A stretch of 64,000 nt of DNA from Echinarachnius parma (Eukaryota; Echinodermata; Echinoidea; Clypeasteroida; Echinarachniidae), in contig JBAMJV010003055.1 in NCBI GenBank assembly GCA_037951105.1, positions 62,001 to 126,000 on the forward strand. The letters run 5' to 3'. Made by a program: the position numbers and the translations under genes. Below are positions 4,622 to 59,128 of this stretch, piece by piece (the first letter of the stretch is position 1; the number at the start of each line of letters is the position of its first letter). A model generated the notes under the pieces. That model was given only the letters and a program-made list of their open reading frames with translations, had not been told where the DNA came from and searched no databases.

Positions 4622-4972
4622 TCTTATGATTCTTTGGAGTGAATGAAATTGAAAAGCGTTCCAGGATTGCTTTTGGATTGTATTTGAAATCATTGAGCAG
4701 TAGGTGATAAAATCTGTGGAAAAGGGTATATTTTATATAGCCTTGCTTATACTTTAAGTTCAAAATTCAAATTGAATCTTATTGGTTTAGGTCTACTTTT
4801 CTATGTTTTCTTATTCATATGCTCAAAACTGATGAGGAATATAAAATGATGTTGATCTGATATAATGTAGGGTAAAGATTTTCATTATCACTGAATTGTG
4901 CTGTATACATGAATATTTAAATAATCAAATGGTATTTATTAAAACATTGAAGTATTCAAAAAATGGACTTAC

Positions 4973-5148
4973 TCATGCATTGATTAGCGTTCTCTGCAGT
5001 GGCTCTCCTCCACTTCATGTTATTGTACAGGGGCAAGCACTCGCCACAGTCCGGTCCAGCCGTGTTGTGTTCGCACTGACAAACTAAGCGATTGTAGGGG
5101 TCGTTGGGAGCCTCAACGCACCTGCTGGCGTGGCCATTGCACTTACAC
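4973..5148 (-). CDS. NTN1: Netrin exon 4: first laminin-EGF (LE1) repeat
   Basis: 176-nt exon encoding residues 266-324. All eight LE cysteines are present: CKC, SRC, LVC, QC, DC, EC and the final NQC. The motif HNTAGPDC and the segment [12 protein letters not shown] are diagnostic of netrin LE1. The exon starts with G completing Arg266, after acceptor CATCTCAG, and ends one base into a codon before donor GTAAGT. The reading frame stays open a few residues into the intron, so the donor sets the end. The next exon (LE2) is not found between 1 and 4972 and must lie beyond the left edge. Related but decayed pieces of this exon lie just upstream at 5219-5552. Confidence 0.93.
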
Positions 5149-5218
5149 CTGAGATGATTAAACAAGTTTGAAAAATATTCACTCAAATAATAATTGGTAA
5201 CGATTTCTAAATTGGCTA

Positions 5219-5552
5219 AGCTGTGTTGTCTTTACACTGACAAACCAAGCGATTGTAAGGTACCTCTCTGGTAGAGCTATAATGCATCATTAAAGTATTA
5301 AATAGTATGACCTTGGGTGATGTTTTGTTTATATAGCTACTTATGACATTATGTTAAGACTGACAAACCAAATAGTGGTAAGAGTCATTGGGGGCCTGAA
5401 CGCAACTGCTAGTGTGGCCTTAATGAACACCAGAGATAATTAAAACAAAGTTAGAAAAGTATGTACACACAAATGATTACAAAATTGGCAACTTTGTACC
5501 ATTGGGCTATAAAGGTTGTGCTGTGTTCGCACTGCCAAACTAAACAATTTTT
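5219..5552 (-). pseudogene. Decayed tandem copies of the netrin LE1 exon region
   Basis: Three stretches upstream of exon 4 resemble it on the same strand. 5219-5262 matches the [10 protein letters not shown]-coding part; 5356-5500 matches from there through the acceptor and about 70 bp of intron at roughly 75-80% by eye; 5518-5552 matches the HNTAG-coding part again. The copies carry base changes and gaps that remove the cysteine pattern and alter the acceptor, so they cannot serve as LE exons. They imply past tandem duplication of the exon. Confidence 0.75.
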
Positions 5553-36788: not shown

Positions 36789-37150
36789 ATCTATCTATCT
36801 ATCTGTCTGTCCGTCCGTCCATTCATCCAGCTAACCATTCTCCCATCCATCTGTCTATCTATCTATCTGTCTGTCCGTCCGTCCATTCATCCAGCTAACC
36901 ATTCTCCCATCCATCTGTCTATCTATCTATCTGTCTGTCCGTCCGTCCATTCATCCAGCTAACCATTCTCCCATCCATCTGTCTATCTATCTATCTGTCT
37001 GTCCGTCCGTCCATTCATCCAGCTAACCATTCTCCCATCCATCTGTCTATCTATCTATCTGTCTGTCCGTCCGTCCATTCATCCAGCTAACCATTCTCCC
37101 ATCCATCTGTCTATCTATCTATCTGTCTGTCCGTCCGTCCATTCATCTAT
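36789..37150. repeat. 64-bp minisatellite, about 5.5 copies
   Basis: Unit made of TCTATC/TGTCTGTCCGTCCGT tracts plus CATTCATCCAGCTAACC and ATTCTCCCATCCATCTGT. The copies are identical or nearly so, implying recent expansion from a TCTA/TCTG microsatellite. Confidence 0.95.
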
Positions 37151-53292: not shown

Positions 53293-53383
53293 CAAGTGGA
53301 AGTAAAGAAAAACTACTACATGTATAAATAATAAATGTTCTCTTTTTTTTTTCTCTTTTTTTTTCATGACATTATCCACTTAC

Positions 53384-53747
53384 CAAGGTGAATGGTGAGG
53401 TTGACCGAATTCGGGTACTGAATCCCTTCGTACATCGTTTCGCTCTGCCATCTCGTCATGCGCTCCTCACTGTGGAAATCGGTGAGGAATCGGGCTGGAT
53501 GCGACCCCCTCGTACATGTATAACACTGGCCACGGGCGCGGGCGCTGTGGACCCCCGTCTGGCGGCAGTAGCGCATGTCCCGGTACTCCCCGCAAGTGTT
53601 GGTCGCCTCGACACTCAGGTTAAAAGCCGCGTTTTGGAACTCGGGAACGCATCTCTGGGACGCTCCTTGGTCGTCATAGCAAGGCACAGAATGCTCTTGG
53701 GCCTGGCACAGTATTCCGAGGCCTAGGACTAGCAGGACCAGCTTCAT
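53384..53747 (-). CDS. NTN1: Netrin exon 1: signal peptide and N-terminal part of laminin N-terminal domain
   Basis: Coding exon 1 of a secreted axon-guidance protein of the netrin family, whose members signal through DCC and UNC5 receptors. The ATG at 53747 opens a 121-codon frame plus one base. Residues 1-17 are a hydrophobic signal peptide ending near CQAQ. The domain follows with PCYDD, RCVPEF-NAAF, TCG, RYC, a QCYTC pair, FLTDFH and WQSE, in the order seen in netrin-1. Possible N-glycosylation sites are N43 (NLS) and N116 (NLT). The exon ends in L121 plus the first base of a glycine codon, followed by the donor GTAAGT, and phase 1 matches exon 2. The start has a fair context (AGCACCATGA) and no better upstream ATG in frame. 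Netrin is firm; the NTN1-type paralogue is chosen over the netrin-4 type from overall pattern. A cysteine normal for the family is Arg99 here. Confidence 0.93.
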
Positions 53748-54037
53748 GGTGCTGTTCCGTGGTATAAAAATGCCTTCTCAAAAGTTCCTGGGAACTCCTT
53801 TCGACTCCTTGCATGCACCTGTCTTGAAAGCGCTCGATACGGGGACGCTATGCACTAGCACATACCATGGTATTCGGTACACACACACAGCAGCTTCCAG
53901 GGATATGGGTGTAGTAGCGGTGGGCTGGTGGCAGTGCAGGGGTGCGGACTTCAGTACCGATTCAGCGTTCGCTCTCTGTACTGTACACGGCTTTTGTATG
54001 TGCTAAATAAAAGTTTTTAAAAGTTCCGCAACGCTAG

Positions 54038-54830: not shown

Positions 54831-56822
54831 AAAATAATTAGGGACCACATTCTGCGCCCAATTAAAATGATCTTTGCCCAAATGCAAATGTTTGTATATA
54901 AAAAAAAAGGGGGTGTACATACCTTCGCCCCTTTTTTTGAATGTTGATACATGTTCGTTTAATCTATTAATTTGGTGATCGCTGGTTTACCAACTTACGC
55001 TATTGCCGGTGTTTATCAAATTGACATGATAATTATCCAAACCAAAGGCCCGTGTCCCGATGCAAACGAAATGTCCATGGTGATGGCCTGTCCAAGCCAT
55101 GATTTATGCATTATATGATTTGATTCATTGAAGAATGACAAAGGAAATACAACAATAAAGAGAGAAATGGAAAAGGAATACTGTTTCAAAGAAAATGTAA
55201 ATGGGAAAGACGTCAGACATAAATAAATTAACATTTATGATAAAGAAAGATTTATGAGAATGAAAGAAAATAATGATCATAACAAAACGTATTCTAGGCG
55301 AAAAGAACAAGTTAGGAAACATACAAACTTGTCTACAAAATTTAAATTTAAATATAATTATTGAATATCATATGATTCCTTGTATTTTAATTTAGTAATA
55401 ATACAAATAAAACTTTTGTTACGCAATGACAAATAAAATATACTATTTTATAATTCCAATTCTTTGTAAAATGTTGTTTGTGATTTATTCATTGTATAAA
55501 ATGTGTATTTTTCTTGTTGAAATTGGAATTACATTTGAACTTTAACTTGAAAAGAAACCTAATGCTATTTAAAACATAGACAAATCACGAAAATCAAATT
55601 AAATGAGGAATAATAGTAAAAGAAAAAATAAAACGATAGAAAAGGGACACCAATGCCTGCGTTGTGCCGAAAGGTGGCGCAACTTCTGTCAAAGGGATGA
55701 TGCATATAACTTGTGATGAAATGGACCGAAAAATCGTTTTTCAGTTTTCAGCTAGCTGGAAGGTCGGAATGGGGTAGAGGGTCACAAATGATCCGGGCGT
55801 ATGGCAAGCCGTTTTAACATTTATTCCTATTTCTTGATATCAAGAATTCAATTCTTGATATCAAGAATTCGACTTCTTGATATCAAAAATTCATTTCTTG
55901 ATATCAAGAATTCAATTCTTGATATCAAGAATTACCATTGCTTTACAACAGAAAATCATTTCTTGATATCAAGAATTCATTTCTTGATATCAAGAAATCA
56001 ATTCTTGATATCAAGAATTCATTTCTTGATATCAAGAATTCAATTCTTGATATCAAGAATTCATTTCTTGATATCAAGAATTCAATTCTTGATATCAAAA
56101 AATAGAATTCATGATATCAAGAATTCAATTCGTATTTCGAACGCAAGACTATTGCAAGAATTATTTTGATATCGAGCGCAAAAGTAATGCAAAAATTCAC
56201 AGTTGATTTCGAGCGCAAATGTAATGCAGAAATTCATTCTGATTTCGTGCTCAAAAGTTGCGCTTAAATTCAATGTGATTCGATTTCGAACGCAAAAGTT
56301 GTGCACGAATTCAATCTGAATTCGTGCTCAAAAGTTGCGCTCAAATTCATTGTGATTCGATTTCGAACGCAAAAGTTGTGCACGAATACATATTCTGCCT
56401 GAGCGGTGCGGTGTCGAAAGTCAATGTATCGCGAGAATTCTGCAAGAATGCATGTTGCCAGTTTGCAGTGCATTGATTGTCTCGGTGATTTTCCTTGTAT
56501 AAAATTTTCATTTCATACTGTTTAATCATTTGACTATTAATTAATGTTACATTGATAATATTGGGTGTGATTCTTACTAGTTTAATTACTTGTTATAAAA
56601 CATACAAAACGCGTCTTTGAAAAACGTAAAACGGCAACATATCAAGAAATCATTTCGTGATATGTTGCCAATAGACAATGCGCAAACCTGTAGCAAAGAT
56701 TACCCCGTGTGTAATAATATATTCACGTTTTTACTGCGCAATTTATTTTAAAATATTTTTGATCACGTCAGTTAAAATAATACTGTCCGATCTGATCATT
56801 TTCAGCAAAAAGACATCTAAAT

Positions 56823-56943
56823 TGACTTACAAAACACGCATTGTAAAAATGATAAATTGGCAACATATCAAGAATTCATGCGGAACTAATGAATTTGTGA
56901 TATGTTGCCAAATTGTGCATTTACAATGCGTATTTTGTAAGTC
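56823..56943. repeat. Long imperfect hairpin in the centre of the fold-back element
   Basis: GACTTACAAAACACGCATTG at the left pairs with its inverse CAATGCGTATTTTGTAAGTC at the right. In between, TTGGCAACATATCA pairs with TGATATGTTGCCAA, giving a stem of over 50 bp around a short loop. A smaller stem with the same GGCAACATATCA core lies at 56633-56669, and a third half-copy is at about 57089-57104. Confidence 0.8.
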
Positions 56944-57369
56944 TTTTTAGAAGTTATTTTGCTTTTAAAATATCACATCTGACGTTACTATTTCAACTAA
57001 AATACAAGTATATTTTACAATTGATCATTCAGAAAAACACGTGGACATGCACAAGGGACAATCTTTACAACAGGTTTACGCAACGTTTATTGGCAACATA
57101 TCACGAAATGATAAAAACGCACGTGGCCGATATTTGGGCTCAGACTGCAGCAGTTATGTTTACTTAGGCTCTAGGGCGGTGTACATGTGTACACAGCTCT
57201 ATGGTGTGTGTTCACAAAGCACGTCCTGAATCTGGACTAGAGACTGCGGCAGTTTTGTGAATAGGCTCTAGCGCGAGTCGTATAGGGCGGTGTGTACATG
57301 GTGTGTGTTCACAAAGCACTTCCTGAATCTGGACTAGACACCGCACCGCTCAGGAGGAAATCGTGCAAT

Positions 57370-57560
57370 ACTTTTGCGTTCGAAATCAGAATGTAATCCT
57401 GCTCAAATCTTGCGTTCGAAATCAGATTGTAATCCTGCTCAAATCTTGCGTTCGAAATCAGAATGTAATCCTGCTCAAATCTTGTGTTCGAAATCAGAAT
57501 GTAATCCTGCTCAAATCTTGCGTTCGAAATCAGAATGTAATCCTGCACAACTCTCGCGTT
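57370..57560. repeat. 36-bp minisatellite, five copies
   Basis: Five head-to-tail 36-bp units built on TTGCGTTCGAAATCAG and GTAATCCTGCTCAAAT, differing at a few bases. The last unit diverges (CTGCACAACTCTCGCG). It forms the inner part of the right arm of the fold-back element. Since 36 is a multiple of three the units read through as repeated peptides in several frames, but these are not taken as genes. Confidence 0.9.
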
Positions 57561-59128
57561 CGAATTAAACTGTGAATTTATCCACTACTTTTGAGCTCGA
57601 TATCCAAATGAATTCTTGATATCAAGAATTGATTTCTTGATATCAAGAAATCGAATTCTTGATATCAAAAAATAAATTCTTGATATCAAGAAATTAATTC
57701 TTGATATCAAGAAATCGAATTCTTGATATCAAGAATTCGAATTCTTGATATCAAGAAATGAATTCTTGATATCAAGAAATCGAATTCTTGATATCACGAA
57801 ATGAATTCTTGATATCAAGAAATCGAATTCTTGATATCAAGAATTGAATTCTTGATATCAAGATTTACCATTGGTTAACAACAGAAAATTATTTCTTGAT
57901 ATCAAGAATTCGAATTCTTGATATCAAGAATTCGAATTCTTGATATCAAGAAATGAATTCTTGATATCAAGAATTGAATTCTTGATATCAAGAAATGAAT
58001 TCTTGATATCAAGAATTGATTTCTTGATATCAAGAAATGAATTCTTGATATCAAGAAATGATTTTCTGTTGTAAAGCAATGGTAATTCTTGATATCAATA
58101 ATTGAATTCTTGATATCAAGAAATGAATTCTTGATATCAAGAAGTCGAATTCTTGATATCAAGAATTGAATTCTTGATATCAAGAAATAGGAATAAATGT
58201 TAAAACGGCTTGCCATACGGGCGCCGTACGATTTTTCTCCCTACGGCGGATTTTCTACGATTTTGGGAAATTGTGATATATCGAACGATGTCTGTGGTAT
58301 CTTAGAGTAGCAGTCACATATTTGCCGGGGCCCGTACGATGATTTTTGTCTTAAAATAAAACATATATCGCACGGCTCCCGTAAACACAATCTTAGTGCC
58401 CGTACGGGTGCCTTACGGTGCTCTTACGGTGACTCCACGGTACCCGTATACGATTTGAGTGGCCAAATATTCAGTCTCAAAATCGTACGATATTCGAAAA
58501 AGGGCTACGGTGTCCTTCCTGTGCCCGTGCGATGCCCTTGCGGTGCCCGTGCGATGCTCACTACGAAGTGTCTACGGGCTTACGGCAAGTAAACAATCGT
58601 ACAATGCATTTTGTTTTAAACTCTGCGTTAAACAAAATGTTGACATCGTACGGCGAGGAAAAATGCAACGGCGACCGCACGATAGCCACGGCACCCGTGC
58701 GGGCGCCGCACGATTCCCGCAAGATTTCACCTAAAAGTGGCATCGTATACGGGCGCCGTAGCTCAAATCGGAGCATTTGTGACCTATAAGCATAACGCGG
58801 GAGTAACACATCCGATATAAGAGTAAACCAGACGGTTTATTTATGTCAAGTGATGAAAATGCAGTCCGTATATTTTGTTATAACAAAATCCGTCTGACTT
58901 GTTCCATCAAGAAAATGAAGTTTTGTTACAGAAAGTCATACACGGCATGCAGTGTTGACAATTTTAACGTAACTACGCAATTTCGATCATCACAATATGG
59001 AGAGTCATATTTTTAAAGTTCTGATCAGCACATCATATTTTCTTTTTGTTTGTCCTTTTCAGCAGCTTTTAGAAGTTATTGGCTGAGGTCCCGCTAAAGA
59101 GAAAAGTAGCGGGGCACTTACATTTTAA

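Follow-up and report, generated by a model that had tools for sequence, protein, structure and literature searches.

We describe an inverted-repeat element of 2418 bp, bounded by identical 31-bp termini, at positions 55800-58217 of the window (the whole 64,000-nucleotide stretch of DNA analysed here). The element has defined ends, 6-bp target site duplications, a preference for CGNNCG target sites, related empty sites and many copies in the genome, and it contains no long reading frame. With moderate confidence, we regard it as a recently amplified, high-copy, non-autonomous cut-and-paste foldback transposon, with an IS3EU-type (integrase-like DDE) transposase, acting in trans, as the most likely agent of its movement; the palindromic units of its arms are probably bound by that protein as a dimer. 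Foldback elements are a known kind of transposon; arms built as arrays of palindromes are a new form of them.

Architecture of the element

The layers of the element run from a 31-bp terminus through a 13-unit array with a 28-bp block, a minisatellite and an 18-bp block to a palindromic core, and then back through the mirrored 18-bp block, the mirrored minisatellite and a 25-unit array to the second 31-bp terminus (Table 1). Most of it forms one imperfect palindrome centred near position 56884, in which the arms 55798-56083 and 57934-58219 are 99% complementary. Alignment of one half to the reverse complement of the other was near-perfect over approximately 290 bp, with two mismatches that both fall inside units; further inwards the array lengths become unequal, and layers of lower identity follow. 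The window has two exact matches to the 12-bp terminus, one per end of the element, and two more places match it at two mismatches, which is chance level.

Table 1. Coordinates of the element and its component layers within the window.
Feature	Positions	Strand	Evidence or remark
Target site duplication, left copy, CGGGCG	55794..55799	.	Same hexamer at 58218-58223
Terminal inverted repeat outside the array, 31 bp, starting TATGGCAAGCCG	55800..55830	+	31/31 identical to opposite end
Left array, 13 units of TTCTTGATATCAAGAA, spacers of 5-6 bp	55831..56123	.	Unit scan
28-bp block within left array	55932..55959	+	Identical inverted copy at 58058-58085; diverged copy at 57865-57892
Left minisatellite, period ~36 bp	56131..56391	+	Repeat and inverted-repeat analysis
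18-bp block CCTGAGCGGTGCGGTGTC	56398..56415	+	Mirror at 57337-57354
Central imperfect palindrome	56649..57112	.	63-bp arms 56649-56711 / 57050-57112; inner arms of 44 and 26 bp
Mirror of 18-bp block CCTGAGCGGTGCGGTGTC	57337..57354	-	Read from sequence and half-to-half alignment
Right minisatellite, period 36 bp, 5.3 copies	57374..57564	-	Tandem-repeat scan
Right array, 25 units of TTCTTGATATCAAGAA	57613..58186	.	Unit scan
Terminal inverted repeat, right end	58187..58217	-	Alignment to left end
Target site duplication, right copy, CGGGCG	58218..58223	.	Single hexamer in four aligned empty sites

The window contains 38 units when up to two mismatches are allowed, where shuffled sequence would give 0.05; 31 units are exact, and all 38 have at most one mismatch. 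An earlier note on this DNA had described about 38 self-palindromic 16-bp units lining both arms, a count that our scan reproduces (13 on the left, 25 on the right); its coordinates for the element were right, and the mirroring that it reported for the minisatellites and the 18-bp block was confirmed. The core palindromes at 56632-56669 and 56858-56910 contain GGCAACATATCAAGAA and ATATGTTGCC, which include half-sites of the unit, a hint of a common origin for the core and the arms. The longest stop-to-stop frame measures 122 amino acids in the window copy and 106-184 amino acids in ten other copies; none of these is a long frame, and the element encodes no transposase.

A high-copy family in the genome

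The genome containing the window (1.20 Gb, 14,790 contigs) holds 11,488 exact copies of the unit, compared with 2 for a reversed-string control. A search with the first 20 bases of the 31-bp terminus, allowing up to two mismatches, returned 2,324 termini (1,177 + 1,147), compared with 1 (1 + 0) for the reversed string. Among 100 matches listed, 15 neighbouring pairs of + and - ends lay less than 6 kb apart; their flanking hexamers agreed at 6/6 positions in 12 pairs, at 5/6 in two (L039 and L045) and at 1/6 in L041, a member of the TTAA-flanked family described below. Five more loci taken round other termini (L050-L054) comprised two short pairs with 2/6 agreement, again of the TTAA family, and three termini without a partner. 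The 12 fetched copies longer than 2 kb contain 28-52 units each, with 7-13 in the shorter arm and 20-27, once 42, in the longer one, and the middles of fetched copies align at 82-98% among the matches listed. At the other extreme of size, L042 (143 bp) keeps three units by its ends with a 6/6 duplication, and L045 (118 bp) keeps two with a 5/6 duplication. A scan of the viral_contigs and genome_contigs collections found nothing.

Long palindromes are hard to assemble, and an assembly artefact or a chance repeat could in principle mimic such a structure; however, thousands of matches spread over many contigs, together with empty sites and duplications that agree, refute this explanation for the family, and its probability is negligible, although the number of units in a single copy might still shift with long reads. 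The window element is a genuine piece of mobile DNA. The earlier note had proposed a foldback transposon inserted as one unit and had staked this on other loci with the same termini and flanking duplication; many such loci exist, and with the copies, duplications and empty sites at hand its proposal survives.

Clusters with extra ends, several of them sharing one hexamer, were seen on contigs C997, C2709, C6060 and C6956, suggesting local duplications or rearrangements around the element. On C997, a stretch of 1,477 bp is repeated at 99.9%.

Duplications, target preference and empty sites

Exact termini directly preceded by CGNNCG number 342 in the genome (the sum of four sub-patterns, 79 + 66 + 122 + 75), with none in the control. 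Neighbouring + and - ends less than 6 kb apart formed 120 pairs among the 320 of these 342 termini that were listed, and 116 of the 120 (38/39 + 43/43 + 35/38) carry an identical 6-bp duplication; the hexamers disagree in the other four. All pairs were pre-selected for the CGNNCG flank; with the two free bases independent, about 1 in 16 would be expected to agree. The pairs fall into 32 shorter than 1 kb (134-877 bp) and 88 of 1.1-5.2 kb, 63 of the latter measuring 2.1-2.5 kb.

An unselected check of the first 30 exact termini by contig order gave 15 of the TTAA family, 8 with CGNNCG and 7 others. Since 8 of the 15 non-TTAA termini carry CGNNCG, against a background of 0.085-0.125% (80 of the 63,995 positions in the window, and 114 of 134,134 in the other loci fetched), the motif is a strong target preference, not a rule: the remaining 7 of 15 lack an exact CGNNCG, some coming close (AGCGCG, GACCCG), and the motif bases C, G, C and G were seen 30, 34, 34 and 31 times, respectively, in 37 distinct non-TTAA termini of the fetched loci. 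A target motif that contains CpG would steer insertions toward CpG-rich DNA, for example promoters.

When the two window flanks were joined with one CGGGCG, at least 41 uninterrupted places matched besides the window's own halves, a lower bound in that 40 of 1,425 candidates were scored. Of these matches, 38 span query positions 121-122 to 274-276 at 94-96% identity; three further ones, on contigs already counted, reach 84-86% (121-263). Four empty places were aligned, and each has a single hexamer—CGGGCG in three, TGGGCG in one. The flank CGGGCG that the earlier note had pointed out is present on both sides of the element, the hexamer is single at related empty sites, and the read-through at these places indicates that the element landed within another dispersed repeat, approximately 20 bp in from its edge. 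The host repeat extends from 58218 to about 58800 and abounds in CCGTACG-like words.

A second family flanked by TTAA

Half of the 30 unselected termini (15) sit within a longer inverted repeat that ends by TTAA, with the edge TTAA-GGCCTGGTCACAC...GGTACGAATC-TATGGC...; the TTAA was read by eye at these edges and is imperfect in some copies. With half of the first 30 in this family, not every terminus represents an insertion of the CGNNCG kind. L041, L050, L051, L053, L054 and others belong to this TTAA-flanked MITE family and have a TATGG..CCATA module with units at the centre. It looks as if the terminal module rides inside a TTAA-type MITE. In L012 and L052, unrelated sequence follows the first 27 bp of the module.

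Conserved palindromic units as candidate protein-binding sites

Compared with the consensus, the window copy differs at 5 of 528 unit positions and at 33 of 175 spacer positions (p = 1.6e-16, counted over the 33 units followed by a step of 21-22 bp). Unit positions vary by 0.5-2.2% and the adjoining spacers by 16-21% in each of 11 copies (the window copy and ten others), which share ancestry and are not independent tests. Unit spacing is 21 bp in 23 cases, 22 bp in ten and 44 bp in three (across each 28-bp block), and 21-22 bp corresponds to about two helical turns.

One way to account for the arrays is passive expansion of a satellite within the arms, its units conserved through homogenisation and not through function. 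The number of units per arm, 7 to 42 across copies longer than 2 kb, and the ability of Tetris arms to seed satellites (PMC4079207) agree with this idea; however, homogenisation should affect units and spacers alike, whereas the spacers of the window copy are about twentyfold more variable, and we hold passive expansion to be improbable.

The palindromes might instead be retained as hairpins or cruciforms that aid excision, replication or array growth, with no protein involved. Each exact unit is indeed a perfect palindrome, and a DNA fold of the entire single strand reaches -754 kcal/mol, a value that carries no shuffle comparison; yet a lone unit reaches only -2.7 kcal/mol, and 136 of the 948 pairs in the whole-strand fold span fewer than 25 bases. 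Moreover, 538 unit-like sites in 16 copies (up to five mismatches, some outside arrays) yielded 23 variants, none a perfect palindrome and 11 of them single changes, and so no compensatory change is seen. The earlier note had envisaged hairpins at two scales; at the scale of the unit the idea is weak, given the low folding energy and the lack of any variant that is a different perfect palindrome. Because the units are conserved and helically spaced and no second perfect palindrome occurs, a symmetric protein site is favoured over hairpin maintenance, to which we likewise give a low probability.

On the best reading of the sequence, a dimeric protein binds the palindromes as phased sites. Any dimeric DNA-binding protein would suit the conservation of the units and their helical spacing, and a host factor—a transcription factor or a nucleosome-phasing protein—might bind them to the advantage of chromatin state or expression, with the transposase using the termini alone; the window copy does sit upstream of a laminin start codon, at a distance of approximately 2 kb. 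Against this, no host factor was identified, and the short copies L042 and L045 retain the units adjoining their ends, which suits a role in transposition at least equally. We consider a host factor unlikely, if somewhat less so than the two explanations above. The protein binding the palindromes is most likely the transposase, an economical guess; in Galileo, the terminal-arm repeats have been viewed as secondary transposase sites (PMC3573991; also cited in PMC4079207). The element and Galileo are set apart by the length of their target site duplications.

Superfamily assignment

Duplications are 8-11 bp long in the Mutator superfamily, to which most foldbacks belong, and 7-8 bp long in the P superfamily with Galileo; neither range fits the 6-bp duplications found here. 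The TTAA duplication of piggyBac/Kolobok-type elements is not seen at the window element.

The termini of the element, TATGG..CCATA, combine with a 6-bp duplication (116 of 120 listed pairs, and the empty sites) and with a 31-bp terminal inverted repeat (TIR) plus array. In complete IS3EU families the ends are always TA..TA and the duplications are mostly 6 bp long (PMC10045372), and fungal IS3EU families have TAYGG..CCRTA ends, 6-bp duplications and TIRs of more than 30 bp (PMC12730594). The element shares all these features with IS3EU / GingerRoot; it differs in having no transposase, and its array arms, foldback form and CGNNCG target go unmentioned for IS3EU in the excerpted text of both papers (PMC10045372, PMC12730594). 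Ends and duplication length together thus fit the IS3EU superfamily, a putative assignment made by ends only because the element encodes no transposase and no autonomous partner was found.

The integrase-core domain PF24764 (rva_4), which we take to be a marker of IS3EU-like transposases, has 34 matches in the genome, on 15 contigs, and was confirmed in the three frames read. Six of these contigs were viewed at 7.5-9.9 kb, four with flanks of about 1.5 kb and five as coordinates only; none of the 34 matches was linked to element ends. Eight short loci showed matches to the 12-bp end only with up to three mismatches; they lack units, and the rule of our script picked out no TA..TA pair whose hexamers agree. 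The six longer stretches (six contigs) had no TATGGCAAGCCG end at up to two mismatches, apart from isolated strings in L065 and L067. The 15 contigs are also absent among the 320 of 342 CGNNCG termini listed; the other 22 termini, from C10617 on, could include C11443 or C13618. The larger relative with a transposase in its middle, which the earlier note had suggested looking for, did not turn up, and no PF24764 gene could be tied to the ends.

Longer pairs, known from end positions, measure 4.1 kb (C7582), 5.2 kb (C8537) and 3.1-3.4 kb (C5539, C5995 and C4294). Three candidates for an autonomous element were rejected: L040 (4.0 kb), whose frames look reverse-transcriptase-like by their letters and whose 280-aa frame has no Pfam match at E 0.01; L044 (5.2 kb), approximately 2.9 kb longer than its relatives, with no frame above 183 aa; and the C997 cluster, with retrotransposon-like frames as read by eye. 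A search for diverged autonomous ends, using CGNNCGTATGGCAAGCCG with any base but T after it, led to two places only, both of them ends of listed pairs.

A PF24764 gene on C3561, C5134 and C5440 (L057, L058 and L059) occurs three times, the copies agreeing at 97-99% over 3.5 kb and two of them at 99.4% over 7.3 kb; these represent another transposon, a duplication or uncollapsed haplotypes.

Evolution of the arms

Ten of the 11 copies fall into two groups by their middles, one of six (including the window copy) and one of four, with L035 as an outlier. Middle identity is 95.0-99.6% within groups and 85.8-88.9% between them. By segment, substitution between groups amounts to 1.0-2.4% in both arrays—approximately the within-group level—and to 4-38% in the middle segments; gaps are uncounted in this comparison, array lengths differ, and the last 31-bp segment was left out as misaligned (gap 0.79). 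As the arrays are alike and the middles have diverged, it would appear that arms were exchanged or replaced between subfamilies, that middles were swapped, or that arms are strongly constrained.

Ongoing conversion between a copy's own arms does not hold as a general rule. Distances among the 26 arms (290 bp each, gaps counted) of 13 copies place 24 of them nearer to an arm in a different copy than to their own opposite arm. For 24 of the 26, the closest arm in a different copy matches in type (a short arm with a short one, a long arm with a long one), the exceptions being the long arm of L035 and the short arm of L040. A copy's own arms differ by 2-5% in nine copies and by 18-36% in four (L035, L036, L040 and L044). 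The arms of L046 are 5% apart, against 14% to the nearest other arm, a likeness that conversion inside this copy could explain. The arm identity of the window copy, as judged from these distances, was inherited from a master copy.

Proposed mechanism and relation to known foldback systems

In the mechanism that we propose, the transposase would recognise the TATGG end plus the 16-bp palindromes, the latter bound as a dimer. With a spacing of 21-22 bp, neighbouring sites would face roughly the same side of the helix, and each arm could serve as a long symmetric loading platform. Arrays would grow and shrink through slippage or unequal exchange, and recombination may spread arm sequence among subfamilies. 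More speculatively, a self-inverse dimer site may have replaced directional subterminal repeats: arrays would then be free of orientation, any arm could pair or exchange with any other, and the arm would become a portable cassette for two transposase systems, joined to a CGNNCG-selecting transposase. We advance this as a tentative possibility. If true, orientation-free arrays would explain why arms are nearly unchanged between subfamilies with different middles, and a portable arm cassette would explain the same terminal module inside a TTAA-type MITE.

The earlier note had likened the order of layers to that of sea urchin TU elements, whose layered arms have an outer tandem domain; any such kinship is tentative, and the ends and the length of the duplication point to IS3EU instead. 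Muta1, a Mutator-like element of Aedes aegypti termed a type 2 foldback element, likewise has a short terminal motif followed by a short-unit array (9 x 12 bp, with 3-4 bp spacers) and derivatives that differ in array length and middle; unlike our element, it makes 8-9 bp duplications and encodes a Mutator-superfamily transposase, and in its case it is the terminal motif, not the repeat unit, that is called palindromic (PMC5225508). Tetris and Galileo of Drosophila share tandem repeats of variable copy number in long TIRs, proposed extra transposase sites and exchange between subfamilies (PMC4079207, PMC3573991). However, their repeat units are approximately 210-220 bp long and are not described as palindromes in the excerpts of these papers, Tetris makes duplications of 8-10 bp (PMC4079207), and Galileo encodes a P-type transposase (PMC4079207, PMC3573991).

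Foldback elements are mostly tied to Mutator (PMC4079207), and the present family offers a likely different superfamily together with a simple palindromic candidate binding site. Searches of the open-access literature (subscription papers and Repbase being outside their scope) listed neither a foldback with a self-palindromic unit nor an IS3EU foldback, nor the letters of the unit TTCTTGATATCAAGAA, in agreement with the earlier note, which knew of no description of such an arm unit. The new points are the CGNNCG preference, the contrast between units and spacers, the combination of similar arms with diverged middles, and the terminal module inside a TTAA-flanked MITE family. For the question of how foldback arms grow, this family provides well over 100 copies with readable unit and spacer barcodes.

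Genomic setting of the window copy

The element starts approximately 2 kb upstream of the ATG in a laminin N-terminal exon (53367-53777, minus strand; PF00055, E 5.6e-21), and a laminin EGF exon lies at 4959-5231 on the same strand (PF00053, E 5.6e-8). These exons mark the window as animal DNA. From a reading of the letters, the laminin is probably a gamma chain. Elsewhere in the window, positions 36790-37147 hold a 64-bp tandem repeat of 5.6 copies that are 100% identical.
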